The translations under genes and the position numbers were made by a program. Positions 11,132 to 55,795 of a stretch of DNA of 64,000 nucleotides are shown one piece after another. This DNA is from Desulfoferula mesophila (lineage in GTDB: Bacteria; Desulfobacterota; Desulfarculia; Desulfarculales; Desulfarculaceae). Where the stretch lies: contig NZ_AP028679.1 in assembly GCF_037076455.1 (NCBI RefSeq), positions 3,425,501-3,489,500 on the forward strand, written 5' to 3'. Numbering within the stretch: the stretch's first letter is position 1; the number at the start of each line of letters is the position of its first letter. The notes below the pieces were generated by a model. The model was not told where the DNA came from. It did not search any database and worked only from the letters and a program-made list of their open reading frames with translations.

Positions 11132-12259
11132 ATGCTGCAAGAGCGTCAACTTCATCAACTCGCTTCTATCCGGACCACTCCCCACGCCACCTTGAGCCTG
11201 TATCTGGCCCTGGACCAACCCAGGGATCAAAGGCTTTTAGCCTGGGGTGATCTGATAAAACGCAAGGAGCAGCAATTGAGCGGCAACGGAGGAGCCGCCA
11301 TGTGGTCCGCCCTGGGTGAAGACGTGCAAAAAGTGGCCAAGCTGGTGGATGACCTGCCGGCCGGCGCCGGCCGGGGCCTGGCGGTGTTCGCCTGCGGCCA
11401 GGCCGGCCTGTTCGAGACCCTAAGCCTGGACGTGCCGGTGGGCAACCTGTTGGAGACCGGGCCGGCCCCCTATATACGCCCCCTGGCCGCCCTGGCCGGA
11501 GATCTGGCGGAGACTCTCGCCATCTTGCTTGACGGGAAAAAAGCACGTTTTTTCAGGTGCTTCCTTGGCAGCACCGAAGAGTTACCCGAGGCCCAGATAT
11601 TGGGCGAGGCCGGTCCCAGCCTGGAGGGCAGCAGCCAGGGGCGCACCGGTGACAGCCATCTGTCGCGCAAATCCGACCAAGCCAGGACCCGCTATCTAAA
11701 GGAGGTGGCCGCCCAGGCCCGGAGCCTGATGGAAGGCGCGGGCTATGAACACCTGGTGCTGGGCGGCTCCCGCGCGGCGGTGGAAGATATCAAGGAGCTG
11801 TTGCACCCCTATCTGGAGCAGCGCCTGGCCGGCGAGTTCGTCCTGGACGTGGGGGCCGGAGCCTCCCAGGTGGCCCAGGAGGTGAGCCAAGTCCTGCAGG
11901 AGGCGCGGCGGGCCCGCCAGGCGGGCCTCCTGGCCAATCTGGCCGACAACCTGGGGCCGGGCGGCCAGGCGGCCACCGGGCTCAACCAGGTGCTGGGGGC
12001 CCTGTTCGAGGGCAAGGTGCACACCCTGTTCGTGCGCCGGGGGCTCACCGCCCACGGCGGAAGCTGCCCCTCCTGCGGCCGGTTGCGCCACGTGGCGGGC
12101 ATGTGCCCCATTTGCAACCAGGCCATGACCCCGGTGGACGACGTGGTCAACCTGGCCGTGGCCGGAGCCCTGGTGGGTGGAGCCCGCCTGGAACAAATCG
12201 AAGGAGACTCGCCCCTGGACGAGTTGGGTGGCGTGGCGGCACTGTTGCGCTATGCTTGA
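11132..12259 (+). CDS. Bacterial archaeo-eukaryotic release-factor-like protein (baeRF)
   Basis: A 375-residue protein laid out like archaeal/eukaryotic peptide-chain release factor 1: an N-terminal module beginning TTPHATLSLYLALDQPRDQR, a central domain (about 120-250, including LAILLDGKKARFFRCFLG), and an L7Ae/ribbon-like C-terminal part with two CxxC pairs (CPSCGRLRHVAGMCPICNQ), a likely zinc ribbon. baeRF proteins are proposed to release or rescue stalled peptidyl-tRNA, by analogy with eRF1 and Vms1; function in bacteria is little tested. No GGQ loop is seen. It is followed by a tRNA-deacylase gene after three bases. Confidence 0.7.
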   Translation: MLQERQLHQLASIRTTPHATLSLYLALDQPRDQRLLAWGDLIKRKEQQLSGNGGAAMWSALGEDVQKVAKLVDDLPAGAGRGLAVFACGQAGLFETLSLDVPVGNLLETGPAPYIRPLAALAGDLAETLAILLDGKKARFFRCFLGSTEELPEAQILGEAGPSLEGSSQGRTGDSHLSRKSDQARTRYLKEVAAQARSLMEGAGYEHLVLGGSRAAVEDIKELLHPYLEQRLAGEFVLDVGAGASQVAQEVSQVLQEARRARQAGLLANLADNLGPGGQAATGLNQVLGALFEGKVHTLFVRRGLTAHGGSCPSCGRLRHVAGMCPICNQAMTPVDDVVNLAVAGALVGGARLEQIEGDSPLDELGGVAALLRYA

Positions 12260-12751: not shown

Positions 12752-13234
12752 CTATTCGCCGGGCTCCACCGCCCCCGCCTCTTCCAGCAACCGGCCCAGA
12801 TACTCGGCCATTTTCCCGGTGAGTTCGGTGCAGATGTTGCGGCGGCTGTCCGGGTTGCCGTAAAAGCTCTTGACCTCATCCTTGTCCCGCCAGTCCACTT
12901 TGGCTATGGCCGCGCAATCGGTGCCGCCGTAGGACTCGCACAGCTTTTCAAAGGCCTTGCTCAGCTTGAAACTGAGGCGCCACATGTTGGCGTCGTCCAT
13001 TTCGTCCGCCCGGGACTTGCTGTAGCGGGCCGACACCGCGGCGATGGCCCCCAGGAGGATGCCGCAGGTGCGCCCTGAGGAGGCGATGCCCCCGCCATAG
13101 GCGCCCACCGCGCGGATCATGTCGGGGTTGTCCAGGCCCAGCTTTTCCTGGCCCACGGCCAGAACCGCCTGGCTTCAATGCATCCTCTTCTTGAACAGAT
13201 CCTCGGCCTTGGCGCGCATCTCCTCTGCGGTCAT
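12752..13234 (-). CDS. C_GCAxxG_C_C family redox selenoprotein (UGA at codon 20), copy 1
   Basis: The frame reads from ATG 13234 (after GGAGAGAGGG) as MTAEEMRAKAEDLFKKRMH, then TGA at 13177-13175, then SQAVLAVGQEK and on to TAG at 12752; 160 residues if UGA is Sec. The TGA falls exactly where this family has its first conserved Cys (usually ..CSQAV..). The other three conserved Cys remain: C57 (RTCGILLG), C107 (TDCAAI) and C135 (NICTEL). Conventional gene calling would start at an internal GTG (13156) and lose 26 residues and the redox residue. The family is a putative thiol redox protein, found mainly in anaerobes. Its neighbour is a second copy with the same feature. Confidence 0.85.
13146..13164 (-). 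promoter_or_regulatory. Candidate bacterial SECIS hairpin, copy 1
   Basis: Twelve bases after the UGA the transcript reads CUGGCC-GUG-GGCCAG: a 6-bp perfect stem (13162-13157 with 13153-13148), extendable by U-G and U-A pairs to 8 bp, with a G-containing 3-base apical loop. Position and loop composition fit bacterial SECIS models for SelB-directed Sec insertion. The matching hairpin in copy 2 supports it. Confidence 0.65.
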
Positions 13235-13285
13235 GCCCTCTCTCCCAAGTATGACGTTTAGGCCCTATGCCCCGGCGAAGGGGCC

Positions 13286-13765
13286 CTATTCGGCCGGCCA
13301 GGGCCGGTTTTGCTCCAAAAGTTCGCTCAGGCAGACCGCCATGTCGCAAACCAGCTCTTCACAGCGCCGCCGGGTGCTGTCCGGCGCGCTTTGGAACCAG
13401 CGGCGCTTGACCGGGTCGTTGTAGTCGAAGCCGATGATGTCCCGGCAGTCGGCCCCGCCATAGGGCGCGGTCAGCTGTTCAAAACGTTCCACCAGCAGGC
13501 GGGCCAAGGGCTTGAGCCGGGGGTCTTCGCTTCCCTGGGGGTCGGCGCAGCCGTAGAGCCCGGCCACCATGCCCACCGCCCCGGTGAGGATGCCGCAGAC
13601 CCGGCCGCTGCGGGCCACTCCGCCGCCGTAGGCGGCCATGGCCTTGATCACCTCCGGCTGGAAGCGCCCCACCTTTTCCTGACCCACGGCCAGAACGGTT
13701 TGGCTTCAGTTGTAGTTCTGGTTGAAAAGCTCCAGCGCGCGCCGGCGAATCTGTTGTGTGGTCAT
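13286..13765 (-). CDS. C_GCAxxG_C_C family redox selenoprotein (UGA at codon 20), copy 2
   Basis: From ATG 13765 the frame reads MTTQQIRRRALELFNQNYN, TGA at 13708-13706, then SQTVLAVGQEK, ending at TAG 13286; 159 residues with Sec. As in copy 1, UGA sits at codon 20 in place of the first family Cys, and Cys remain in RVCGILTG, ADCRDI and RRCEEL, plus two extra Cys in CDMAVC. The GG-AG ribosome site (GGGAGACACC) precedes the ATG. It lies 51 bases upstream of copy 1 on the same strand and 32 bases after the NYN gene. Two independent UGA genes at the same family position make sequencing error or pseudogenes unlikely. Confidence 0.86.
13677..13695 (-). promoter_or_regulatory. Candidate bacterial SECIS hairpin, copy 2
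   Basis: The same distance after the UGA as in copy 1, the transcript reads CUGGCC-GUG-GGUCAG. The single change from copy 1 (C to U in the descending arm) turns a G-C pair into a G-U pair and keeps the stem. The loop GUG is identical. The encoded peptide is also conserved, so protein-level selection may explain part of the similarity. Confidence 0.65.
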
Positions 13766-13797: not shown

Positions 13798-14622
13798 TCA
13801 GGCCGCCGCCCCGAAGCCCTCCACGGTGTAGGTGCCGCTACGGGTGTCCTTGTGCAGGGTGATGAGCCCCTGTTTCTGGGCGTCCAGGAGCAGCTCGGAG
13901 AAGGAGCGGTAGCCGTGATAGGACTCGTCAAAAGACGGCTGCTTGCGCTTCATGGTGTCCTTGACCATGGAGGCGTAGATGACTTCCTTGTTTTCGCGCT
14001 GCAGGGCCACCAGCGACTGGATGAGCAGCTGGTACACCTCGCGGTTGGCCTGGGGCAGGCCCTGGGGCAAGGCGGGGGGCTGGTTGCGCTGGCGCTCCAG
14101 ATCCTCGTAATAGACGAACTCGTCGCAGTTGTCGCGCAACAGGTCGCTGGTGGAGGCCTTCATGCCCAGGCCGATGACCCGCTTGCCGTTCTCCTTGAGC
14201 TTGCTGACCAGGGGCGAGAAGTCGCTGTCTCCGCTGACGATGACAAAGGTGTCCACGTGGCTCTTGGAGTAGCACAGGTCTATGGCGTCCACCACCAGGC
14301 GGATGTCGGCGCTGTTCTTGCCGGTTTGGCTGCGCTTGGGGATCTCGATCAACTCCACGGCCAGCTCATGGAGCTGATGCTTGTAGTTGCCGTAGCGGGT
14401 CCAGTCGGCGTAGGCCTTTTTCACCACCACCTTGCCCTTTTCCACCAGGCGCTCCAGGATCAGGCGGGCGTCAAAGGTCTCCTTGCGGTTGTTCAGGCCC
14501 AGGGCCAGGTTTTCAAAGTCTATGAACACGGCCAAGGTGTGTTCGCTATCAGGCAAAATCGCCTCCAGGTTTGATCGCGGCGCGGGTATGGGCTTTTGCC
14601 CCGTTCCGGTGTAAGTTACCAT
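13798..14622 (-). CDS. NYN-domain (PIN-like) nuclease with C-terminal OST-HTH/LOTUS-like domain
   Basis: A 274-residue protein. The NYN domain (about 28-175) has the acidic residues of PIN-like RNases in VFIDFENLALG, SADIRLVVDAIDL and VSGDSDFSPLVSKL. The C-terminal part from about 195 (REVYQLLIQSLVALQRENKE to GTYTVEGF) has the layout of an OST-HTH/LOTUS RNA-binding domain. Such proteins are thought to bind and cleave RNA; the target is unknown. The ATG at 14622 is used. The gene is divergent from glycogen phosphorylase and upstream of the two selenoprotein genes. Confidence 0.85.
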   Translation of the reverse strand: MVTYTGTGQKPIPAPRSNLEAILPDSEHTLAVFIDFENLALGLNNRKETFDARLILERLVEKGKVVVKKAYADWTRYGNYKHQLHELAVELIEIPKRSQTGKNSADIRLVVDAIDLCYSKSHVDTFVIVSGDSDFSPLVSKLKENGKRVIGLGMKASTSDLLRDNCDEFVYYEDLERQRNQPPALPQGLPQANREVYQLLIQSLVALQRENKEVIYASMVKDTMKRKQPSFDESYHGYRSFSELLLDAQKQGLITLHKDTRSGTYTVEGFGAAA

Positions 14623-54686: not shown

Positions 54687-54953
54687 ATGCGCAGGACCAG
54701 ATTCAGCGAAACTCAGATCGTCAAAATTCTGAAAGAGGTGGAAGGGGGCAGGACCGCCAAGGAGGTCTGCCGGGAATACGGTGTCAGCAGCGCCACCTAC
54801 TACAAATGGAAGTCCAAGTACGGGGGCATGGAGGCCTCGGACATCGTCCGGCTCAAGGAGCTTGAAGAAGAAAACAGGCGTCTAAAGCAGATGTACGCCG
54901 ACTTGAGCCTTGAGAATCGGGCTCTGAAGGACGTCATCGAAAGAAAAATATAA
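54687..54953 (+). CDS. IS3-family transposase OrfA
   Basis: An 88-residue HTH protein (RRTRFSETQIVKILKEVEGG, then AKEVCREYGVSSATYYKWKS) ending in a leucine-rich coiled coil that mediates dimerisation. Strong AAGGAGGA precedes ATG 54687. It ends with IERKI, and an A-rich AGAAAAATA site just before its stop probably lets ribosomes shift to -1 to make the OrfAB transposase. Confidence 0.92.
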   Translation: MRRTRFSETQIVKILKEVEGGRTAKEVCREYGVSSATYYKWKSKYGGMEASDIVRLKELEEENRRLKQMYADLSLENRALKDVIERKI

Positions 54954-54985
54954 GGCCAGCGGGTCGGCGCGATCTGGCTAAGTTC

Positions 54986-55795
54986 ATGTGCAAAGAGCAC
55001 GGTCTGAGCATTCGCCGGGCCTGCCGCGCCCTGAGGCTGAGCCGGTCGGTTTATGCCTACCGACCCAAGCCCCGCGACGATGGTCCGATCATCGAGGCGC
55101 TGACTTCGCTGGCAGACAAATATCCCAGATACGGCTTTGCCAAACTGTTTCAAGTAATTCGGCGGGATGGACATGGCTGGAATCACAAGCGGGTGTACCG
55201 AGTGTACTGCGCCCTGAAGCTAAACCTTCGCAGGAAGGGTAAGAAGCGCCTGCCTACTCGTGATCCCCAGCCGCTTGCAGTGCCGGATCTGGCCAATATC
55301 TGCTGGTCGGTGGACTTCATGAGCGATGCCCTGTATGGCGGCCAGCGATTCAGGACCTTTAATGTGGTGGATGATTTCAATCGAGAGGCCCTGGCCATAG
55401 AGGTGGACGTCAATCTCCCCGCCCAAAGGATAATCCGAGTGCTGGAGCGTATCGCTGCCTGGCGGGGCTACCCGTCCAGGCTGAGGCTGGACAACGGCCC
55501 GGAGCTGGTCAGTGTAGCTATGGCCCAATGGGCCGAGGAGCATAGTATCGATTTGGGTTTCACTCAGCCCGGCAAGCCCACCCAGAATTCATACATTGAA
55601 CGCTTCAACCGGACCTATCGGGAAGAGGTGCTGGACCTTTACATATTTTCCCGTCTAAGCGAGGTGCGGGAAATCACGGATCGCTGGCTCAAGGAGTACA
55701 ACGAGGAACGCCCTCATGAGTCCCTCGGCAACCTGACACCAGCCGAATACCTCGCTATAAATTCACCTGAAGTTTCTACTGTTGACTGGCACTAA
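54986..55795 (+). CDS. IS3-family transposase OrfB (DDE integrase)
   Basis: A 269-residue catalytic part with the DDE triad in SVDFMSDALYGG, LRLDNGPELVS and NSYIERFNRTYREE. The frame is open back to about 54945, in -1 relative to OrfA, consistent with expression as an OrfAB fusion by frameshifting; the ATG at 54986 would give the shorter OrfB. It appears intact. Confidence 0.92.
   Translation: MCKEHGLSIRRACRALRLSRSVYAYRPKPRDDGPIIEALTSLADKYPRYGFAKLFQVIRRDGHGWNHKRVYRVYCALKLNLRRKGKKRLPTRDPQPLAVPDLANICWSVDFMSDALYGGQRFRTFNVVDDFNREALAIEVDVNLPAQRIIRVLERIAAWRGYPSRLRLDNGPELVSVAMAQWAEEHSIDLGFTQPGKPTQNSYIERFNRTYREEVLDLYIFSRLSEVREITDRWLKEYNEERPHESLGNLTPAEYLAINSPEVSTVDWH

Follow-up and report, generated by a model that had tools for sequence, protein, structure and literature searches.

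Two adjacent genes of the Pfam family PF09719 (C_GCAxxG_C_C), located in a 64,000-nucleotide stretch of Desulfoferula mesophila DNA (herein referred to as the window), each carry an in-frame UGA at codon 20 that, on the evidence of sequence comparison, almost certainly encodes selenocysteine (Sec) in both genes. PF09719 has four invariant cysteines, and the codon coincides with the first of them. The family was found to be homologous to split-Soret cytochrome c, with a one-to-one correspondence of the four cysteines.

The gene pair and the reading of its UGA codons

Both genes are on the reverse strand. Gene 1 (12752-13234, stop codon included) encodes a PF09719 protein of 160 residues, P0001, with Sec20, Cys57, Cys107 and Cys135, and gene 2 (13286-13765), located upstream of gene 1 in the same direction, encodes a PF09719 protein of 159 residues, P0002, again with Sec20; the respective UGA codons lie at 13175-13177 and 13706-13708 of the same strand. 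After translation with TGA read as U, the N-terminal sequences are MTAEEMRAKAEDLFKKRMHUSQAVLAVGQEK for P0001 and MTTQQIRRRALELFNQNYNUSQTVLAVGQEK for P0002, each frame including one in-frame TGA and zero other internal stops, and the ribosome-site-like sequences GGGAGAGAGGG and GGGAGA are situated just upstream of the ATG codons. The intergenic stretch of 51 nt (13235-13285, reverse strand) contains the ribosome-site-like GGGAGAGAGGG, and this spacing suggests that the two genes are on a single transcript. The translation confirmed the preliminary description of both frames, which start at an ATG with a ribosome-site-like sequence and are interrupted only by the TGA of codon 20; the three other conserved cysteines (Cys57, Cys107 and Cys135), described therein as intact, are present in both proteins. 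The tandem paralogues reported at the same time are real, with the correction that P0001 and P0002 are 42-43% identical.

The preliminary description proposed a search for selA, selB, selC and selD as a check, and all four were found in the window genome (one contig, 4.48 Mb): selA with 612 bits, selB with 393 bits, selD with 377 bits and its own in-frame UGA within the motif GUAAKIGP, and selC as a tRNA-Sec with the anticodon TCA (UCA). Alignment with Cys-bearing members of the family, proposed as another check, gave the same answer, since TGA and TGC/TGT replace each other at the same codon: among 73 rows of relatives, codon 20 is TGA in 54 and a cysteine codon (TGC/TGT) in 19. On the maximum-likelihood tree the Sec/Cys label changes 7 times, and 5 of these changes are forced by well-supported branches. 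When 84,980 species genomes were surveyed with one peptide pattern as the seed, a search that is not exhaustive, 63 loci were obtained, mostly in Desulfobacterota lineages; the family is present in 179 of the 297 sampled genomes of the phylum. TGA was located at the first Cys in 25 out of 26 further TGA-bearing members read from the phylum, and members of this type are spread over several subfamilies (HUSQ, NUAES and NUAQ).

Three PF09719 members with stop codons elsewhere were also noted. In L214 (G181:C30) the first Cys is intact and a TGA occurs about 17 codons further on at a non-Cys position (GIEH-TGA-QAMK), representing a mutation, an error or an unusual recoding. In L237 (G278:C15) and L238 (G275:C13) an in-frame TAG is present within the conserved region, and these two may be read through with pyrrolysine or may be broken genes.

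A putative SECIS hairpin was predicted downstream of each UGA, at 13146-13164 for gene 1 (UUCUGGCC-GUG-GGCCAGGA, 8 pairs, with GTG 13154-13156 as the loop) and at 13677-13695 for gene 2 (UUCUGGCC-GUG-GGUCAGGA, with GTG 13685-13687 as the loop), both on the reverse strand. The predicted 8-bp stem begins 11 nt after the UGA (10 nt between); in a Syntrophales branch the stem is instead 7 bp with the loop GGUCGG. Synonymous recoding was employed as a fair control because the stem also encodes a conserved peptide. The mean hairpin energy of Sec genes was -9.9 kcal/mol versus -6.0 kcal/mol for the synonymous shuffles, while that of Cys genes was -4.1 versus -4.0 kcal/mol, and the z-scores of the two groups differed with p of about 8e-6, a value that is not a strict probability since the rows are related. 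The contrast belongs to the set as a whole: tested one at a time, the two genes of the pair do not differ significantly from their synonymously recoded versions (P about 0.09 and 0.21). Pairing in the stem holds in 91% of cells, compared with 33-68% when it is slid along the sequence, and covariation is modest, consisting of one pair with a compensatory change from G-C to A-U in 5 sequences, a level reached by 1 of 500 shuffles. A stem-loop that follows closely on the UGA, has a G in its apical loop and is confined to Sec genes was thus found at the level of the set.

The assignment of the codon-20 UGA to Sec is based on these three lines of evidence, that is, the complete Sec pathway, the interchange of Sec and Cys among relatives, and the hairpin specific to Sec genes, and together they bear out the preliminary claim of selenocysteine at the first conserved Cys. 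If the TGAs were ordinary stops, the true proteins would begin at the internal GTG codons (13156 and 13687), in agreement with the output of a mechanical ORF caller; this reading is nevertheless very improbable, because the 19 codons preceding the TGA remain in frame and alignable across species, in line with the earlier remark that the sequence on either side of the TGA fits the family, because relatives have Cys in place of the TGA, because the GTG 'start' is the loop of the hairpin, and because the genome has a Sec pathway. The chance that the TGAs are sequencing errors or the genes pseudogenes is negligible, this idea being already refuted by the presence of TGA at the same codon in dozens of independent assemblies with the frame otherwise intact. 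Since the GTG chosen by the ORF caller is the hairpin loop, such an annotation would delete Sec20; the preliminary description had warned that a start at the internal GTG would cost both proteins their redox site. Annotation pipelines are hereby shown to misplace the starts of such genes onto the SECIS loop, with the loss of the first conserved residue.

History and surroundings of the pair within the genus

The pair was identified in 7 of 8 genomes of the genus, including the window genome (G000); outside the genus, the flanks examined did not contain a tandem pair. The pair probably originated by duplication within this one genus of Desulfarculaceae. In gene order, codon 20 is Sec/Sec in G000, G003 and G004, Sec then Cys in G005 and G007, and Cys then Sec in G001 and G006; P0002 comes first in G000, G004, G005 and G007, and P0001 in the other three (G001, G003 and G006). 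The P0001-type and P0002-type paralogues form separate tree branches within the genus. According to the preliminary description, selection has kept the UGA in both copies; this holds for the P0002 branch, with UGA in 7/7 genomes, but not for the P0001 branch, in which one switch to Cys took place in the ancestor of four of the seven genomes. Close relatives with Sec/Sec, Sec/Cys and Cys/Sec versions of the same pair provide a natural experiment on what selenium buys.

A gene with an NYN domain (13798-14622, reverse strand) is located upstream of the pair, and a tandem pair beside such a nuclease had been regarded as the less expected part. The NYN nuclease was considered as a partner and rejected: it is syntenic in only 3/7 members of the genus (G000, G004 and G005), and in the other 4/7 the pair persists without it. 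Its position next to the pair is thus incidental, and the NYN gene is probably outside the system. Flanking genes common to 7/7 genomes are a glycogen-phosphorylase-like gene and an aminoacyl-tRNA editing gene. No conserved neighbour outside the genus was found by all-against-all comparison of open frames (about 7 kb, 60 loci); the idea of a functional operon was rejected on this comparison, and no partner is indicated by a conserved neighbour.

Two further observations concern the surrounding DNA. Six genomes of the genus retain, next to the selenoprotein pair, a baeRF family 10 gene (bacterial archaeo-eukaryotic release factor; in the window at 11132-12259, forward strand, 85 bits), whose product has a C-terminal four-Cys zinc-ribbon-like end. 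At 54952-55094 on the reverse strand, the window matches Rfam isrN, by its description an sRNA that binds Hfq, with 57.7 bits against a gathering score of 44; the match is unexpected in this lineage and is possibly false or of mobile-element type.

Homology to split-Soret cytochrome c and the proposed redox centre

The AF2 model is essentially all-helical (pLDDT 92.5) and gave a single outstanding structural match, split-Soret cytochrome c (1H21), with Z 13.0 (138 residues, 3.4 angstrom), a score that by the aligner's own warning helical bundles may reach (about 13) by chance; the runner-up had Z 4.1. Foldseek with the model gave no match at E < 0.001, and a PDB sequence search with P0001 alone gave nothing convincing, the fold match and the relation having surfaced only with the sequence profiles of the family and the second-look aligner. 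In the broad family profile search 1H21 was the sole match (E 2.7e-8), and Pfam assigns PF09719 with 57 bits to a split-Soret homologue close to 1H21 (phmmer 3.5e-138). Profile-profile alignment with the cytochrome (E 9.9e-9) matched residues 20, 57, 107 and 135, each read as Cys, to four cysteines, C44, C86, C147 and C171 in 1H21, which do not vary among seven cytochrome relatives; the first one aligns only with a four-residue insertion in a helix. The homology of the family to split-Soret cytochrome c and the correspondence of the four cysteines are shown by these results, which offer a solved homologue and a testable idea on the four cysteines for a large family of unknown function.

In the paper on split-Soret cytochrome c, an EPR-detected iron-sulfur centre, possibly [2Fe-2S] and lost in the aerobic crystal, was reportedly described. 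The title of that paper, as given among the references of PMC5701242, reports a novel iron centre, and one member of the present family was labelled 'putative FeS cluster-binding' in a proteomic paper (PMC8322314). With moderate confidence we propose that P0001 and P0002 are cytoplasmic selenoproteins with a haem-less split-Soret-type body, in which Sec20 and Cys57/107/135 make a small iron-sulfur/redox centre. The UGA at codon 20 would be read as Sec by SelB and Sec-tRNA(UCA), aided by the hairpin downstream, and translation would halt after 19 residues if selenium or SelB were lacking. The protein would adopt the fold of the haem-less split-Soret body, and Sec20, Cys57, Cys107 and Cys135 would meet in a single small centre, iron-sulfur (possibly [2Fe-2S]) or of an equivalent redox type, which would pass electrons or reduce a substrate; selenium in place of one thiolate might shift its potential, its reactivity or its resistance to oxidation. 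We infer the metal centre, its direct ligation by Sec and the electron-transfer role. More tentatively, Sec20 could bind the iron-sulfur centre directly as a selenolate ligand, in a protein that is related to split-Soret cytochrome c but is cytoplasmic and haem-less. This chemistry would extend across much of the phylum and would be carried in one genus by a duplicated pair, with one copy always Sec and the other drifting to Cys.

Two other functions were weighed against the iron-sulfur/redox centre. Sec20 might form a reversible selenenylsulfide with a conserved cysteine, the proteins then being oxidoreductases of the thiol-disulfide type without a metal, as might be expected from the Pfam name 'putative redox-active protein', from the position of Sec20 at a helix start in the model and from a review in which most uncharacterised prokaryotic selenoproteins are considered to be probably redox proteins (PMC13188914). 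This appears less likely, because the four Cys are co-conserved as a set and are retained in the cytochrome with the novel iron centre in the title of its paper, and because the proteins have neither a CxxC/UxxC motif nor a thioredoxin fold. Alternatively, the four residues might bind a metal other than iron, or a metalloid (zinc, copper, mercury or arsenic), in a protein for sequestration or detoxification, and many new bacterial selenoproteins have indeed been linked to metal/metalloid resistance (PMC13188914); here the probability is low, since zero conserved adjoining genes outside the genus were found in the relatives examined and the sole solved homologue is an electron-transfer cytochrome.

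Comparison with known families

Both proteins score over the gathering threshold of PF09719 (27 bits), P0001 with 74.1 and P0002 with 77.6 bits, and both carry its four cysteines, of which one may be Sec; residues 20, 57, 107 and 135 are invariant as Cys, with Sec read as Cys, in an alignment of 25 sequences that reaches Bacillota and Spirochaetota. The window genome also has a third PF09719 gene, without TGA (L066:4512-4910; G000:C1:4056547-4056897), about 15 kb from selB.

The suspicion that Sec forms of the family are already known was right, the NCBI name of the family being '(seleno)protein' and the Sec 'forms 1 and 2' of PF09719 having been tabulated with reference to Zhang and Gladyshev 2007 and 2008 (PMC13188914). 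Two reviews list Sec forms of PF09719, traced to the Olavius symbiont paper (2007) and the marine metagenome paper of 2008, and the entries for these forms do not give the position or motif of Sec. The Sec form of the family is thus already catalogued and common in the phylum, and the tandem arrangement is confined to a single genus. As far as the literature consulted shows, the following are new: Sec keeps one fixed position in many relatives; Sec and Cys have switched repeatedly, with the hairpin being lost; the genes occur as a tandem pair; and each of the four cysteines maps onto split-Soret cytochrome c.

With the (seleno)protein of TIGR01909/PF09719 the pair shares the Pfam family, the four cysteines and the use of Sec, already recognised there, but the pair, scored with C in place of U, falls just below the TIGR01909 cut-off of 47.4 (45.2 and 44.1 bits), and it differs in the placement of Sec at the first Cys and in its tandem arrangement. 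The DVU_1555 family (NF045669) is the top NCBIfam match of the pair by bit score, with nearly full-length alignment, but at 74.7 and 81.8 bits the pair is under the curated cut-off of 103 and is therefore outside that family as defined. The HUGP/GUXX-star fusion selenoprotein (NF045501) is matched partially, with about 38-40 bits over the C_GCAxxG_C_C region, but the pair is far under its cut-off of 325, and NF045501 is a longer fusion protein. Split-Soret cytochrome c of Desulfovibrio desulfuricans (1H21) has a homologous fold, and the four cysteines of the family are invariant among its relatives. A twin-arginine-like N-terminus and, at the C-terminal end, haem-binding CxxCH motifs are features of the cytochrome, which has no Sec; in contrast, P0001 and P0002 lack both the CxxCH motifs and the export signal of the cytochrome relatives and are short, haem-less proteins that contain Sec and show no obvious signal sequence.
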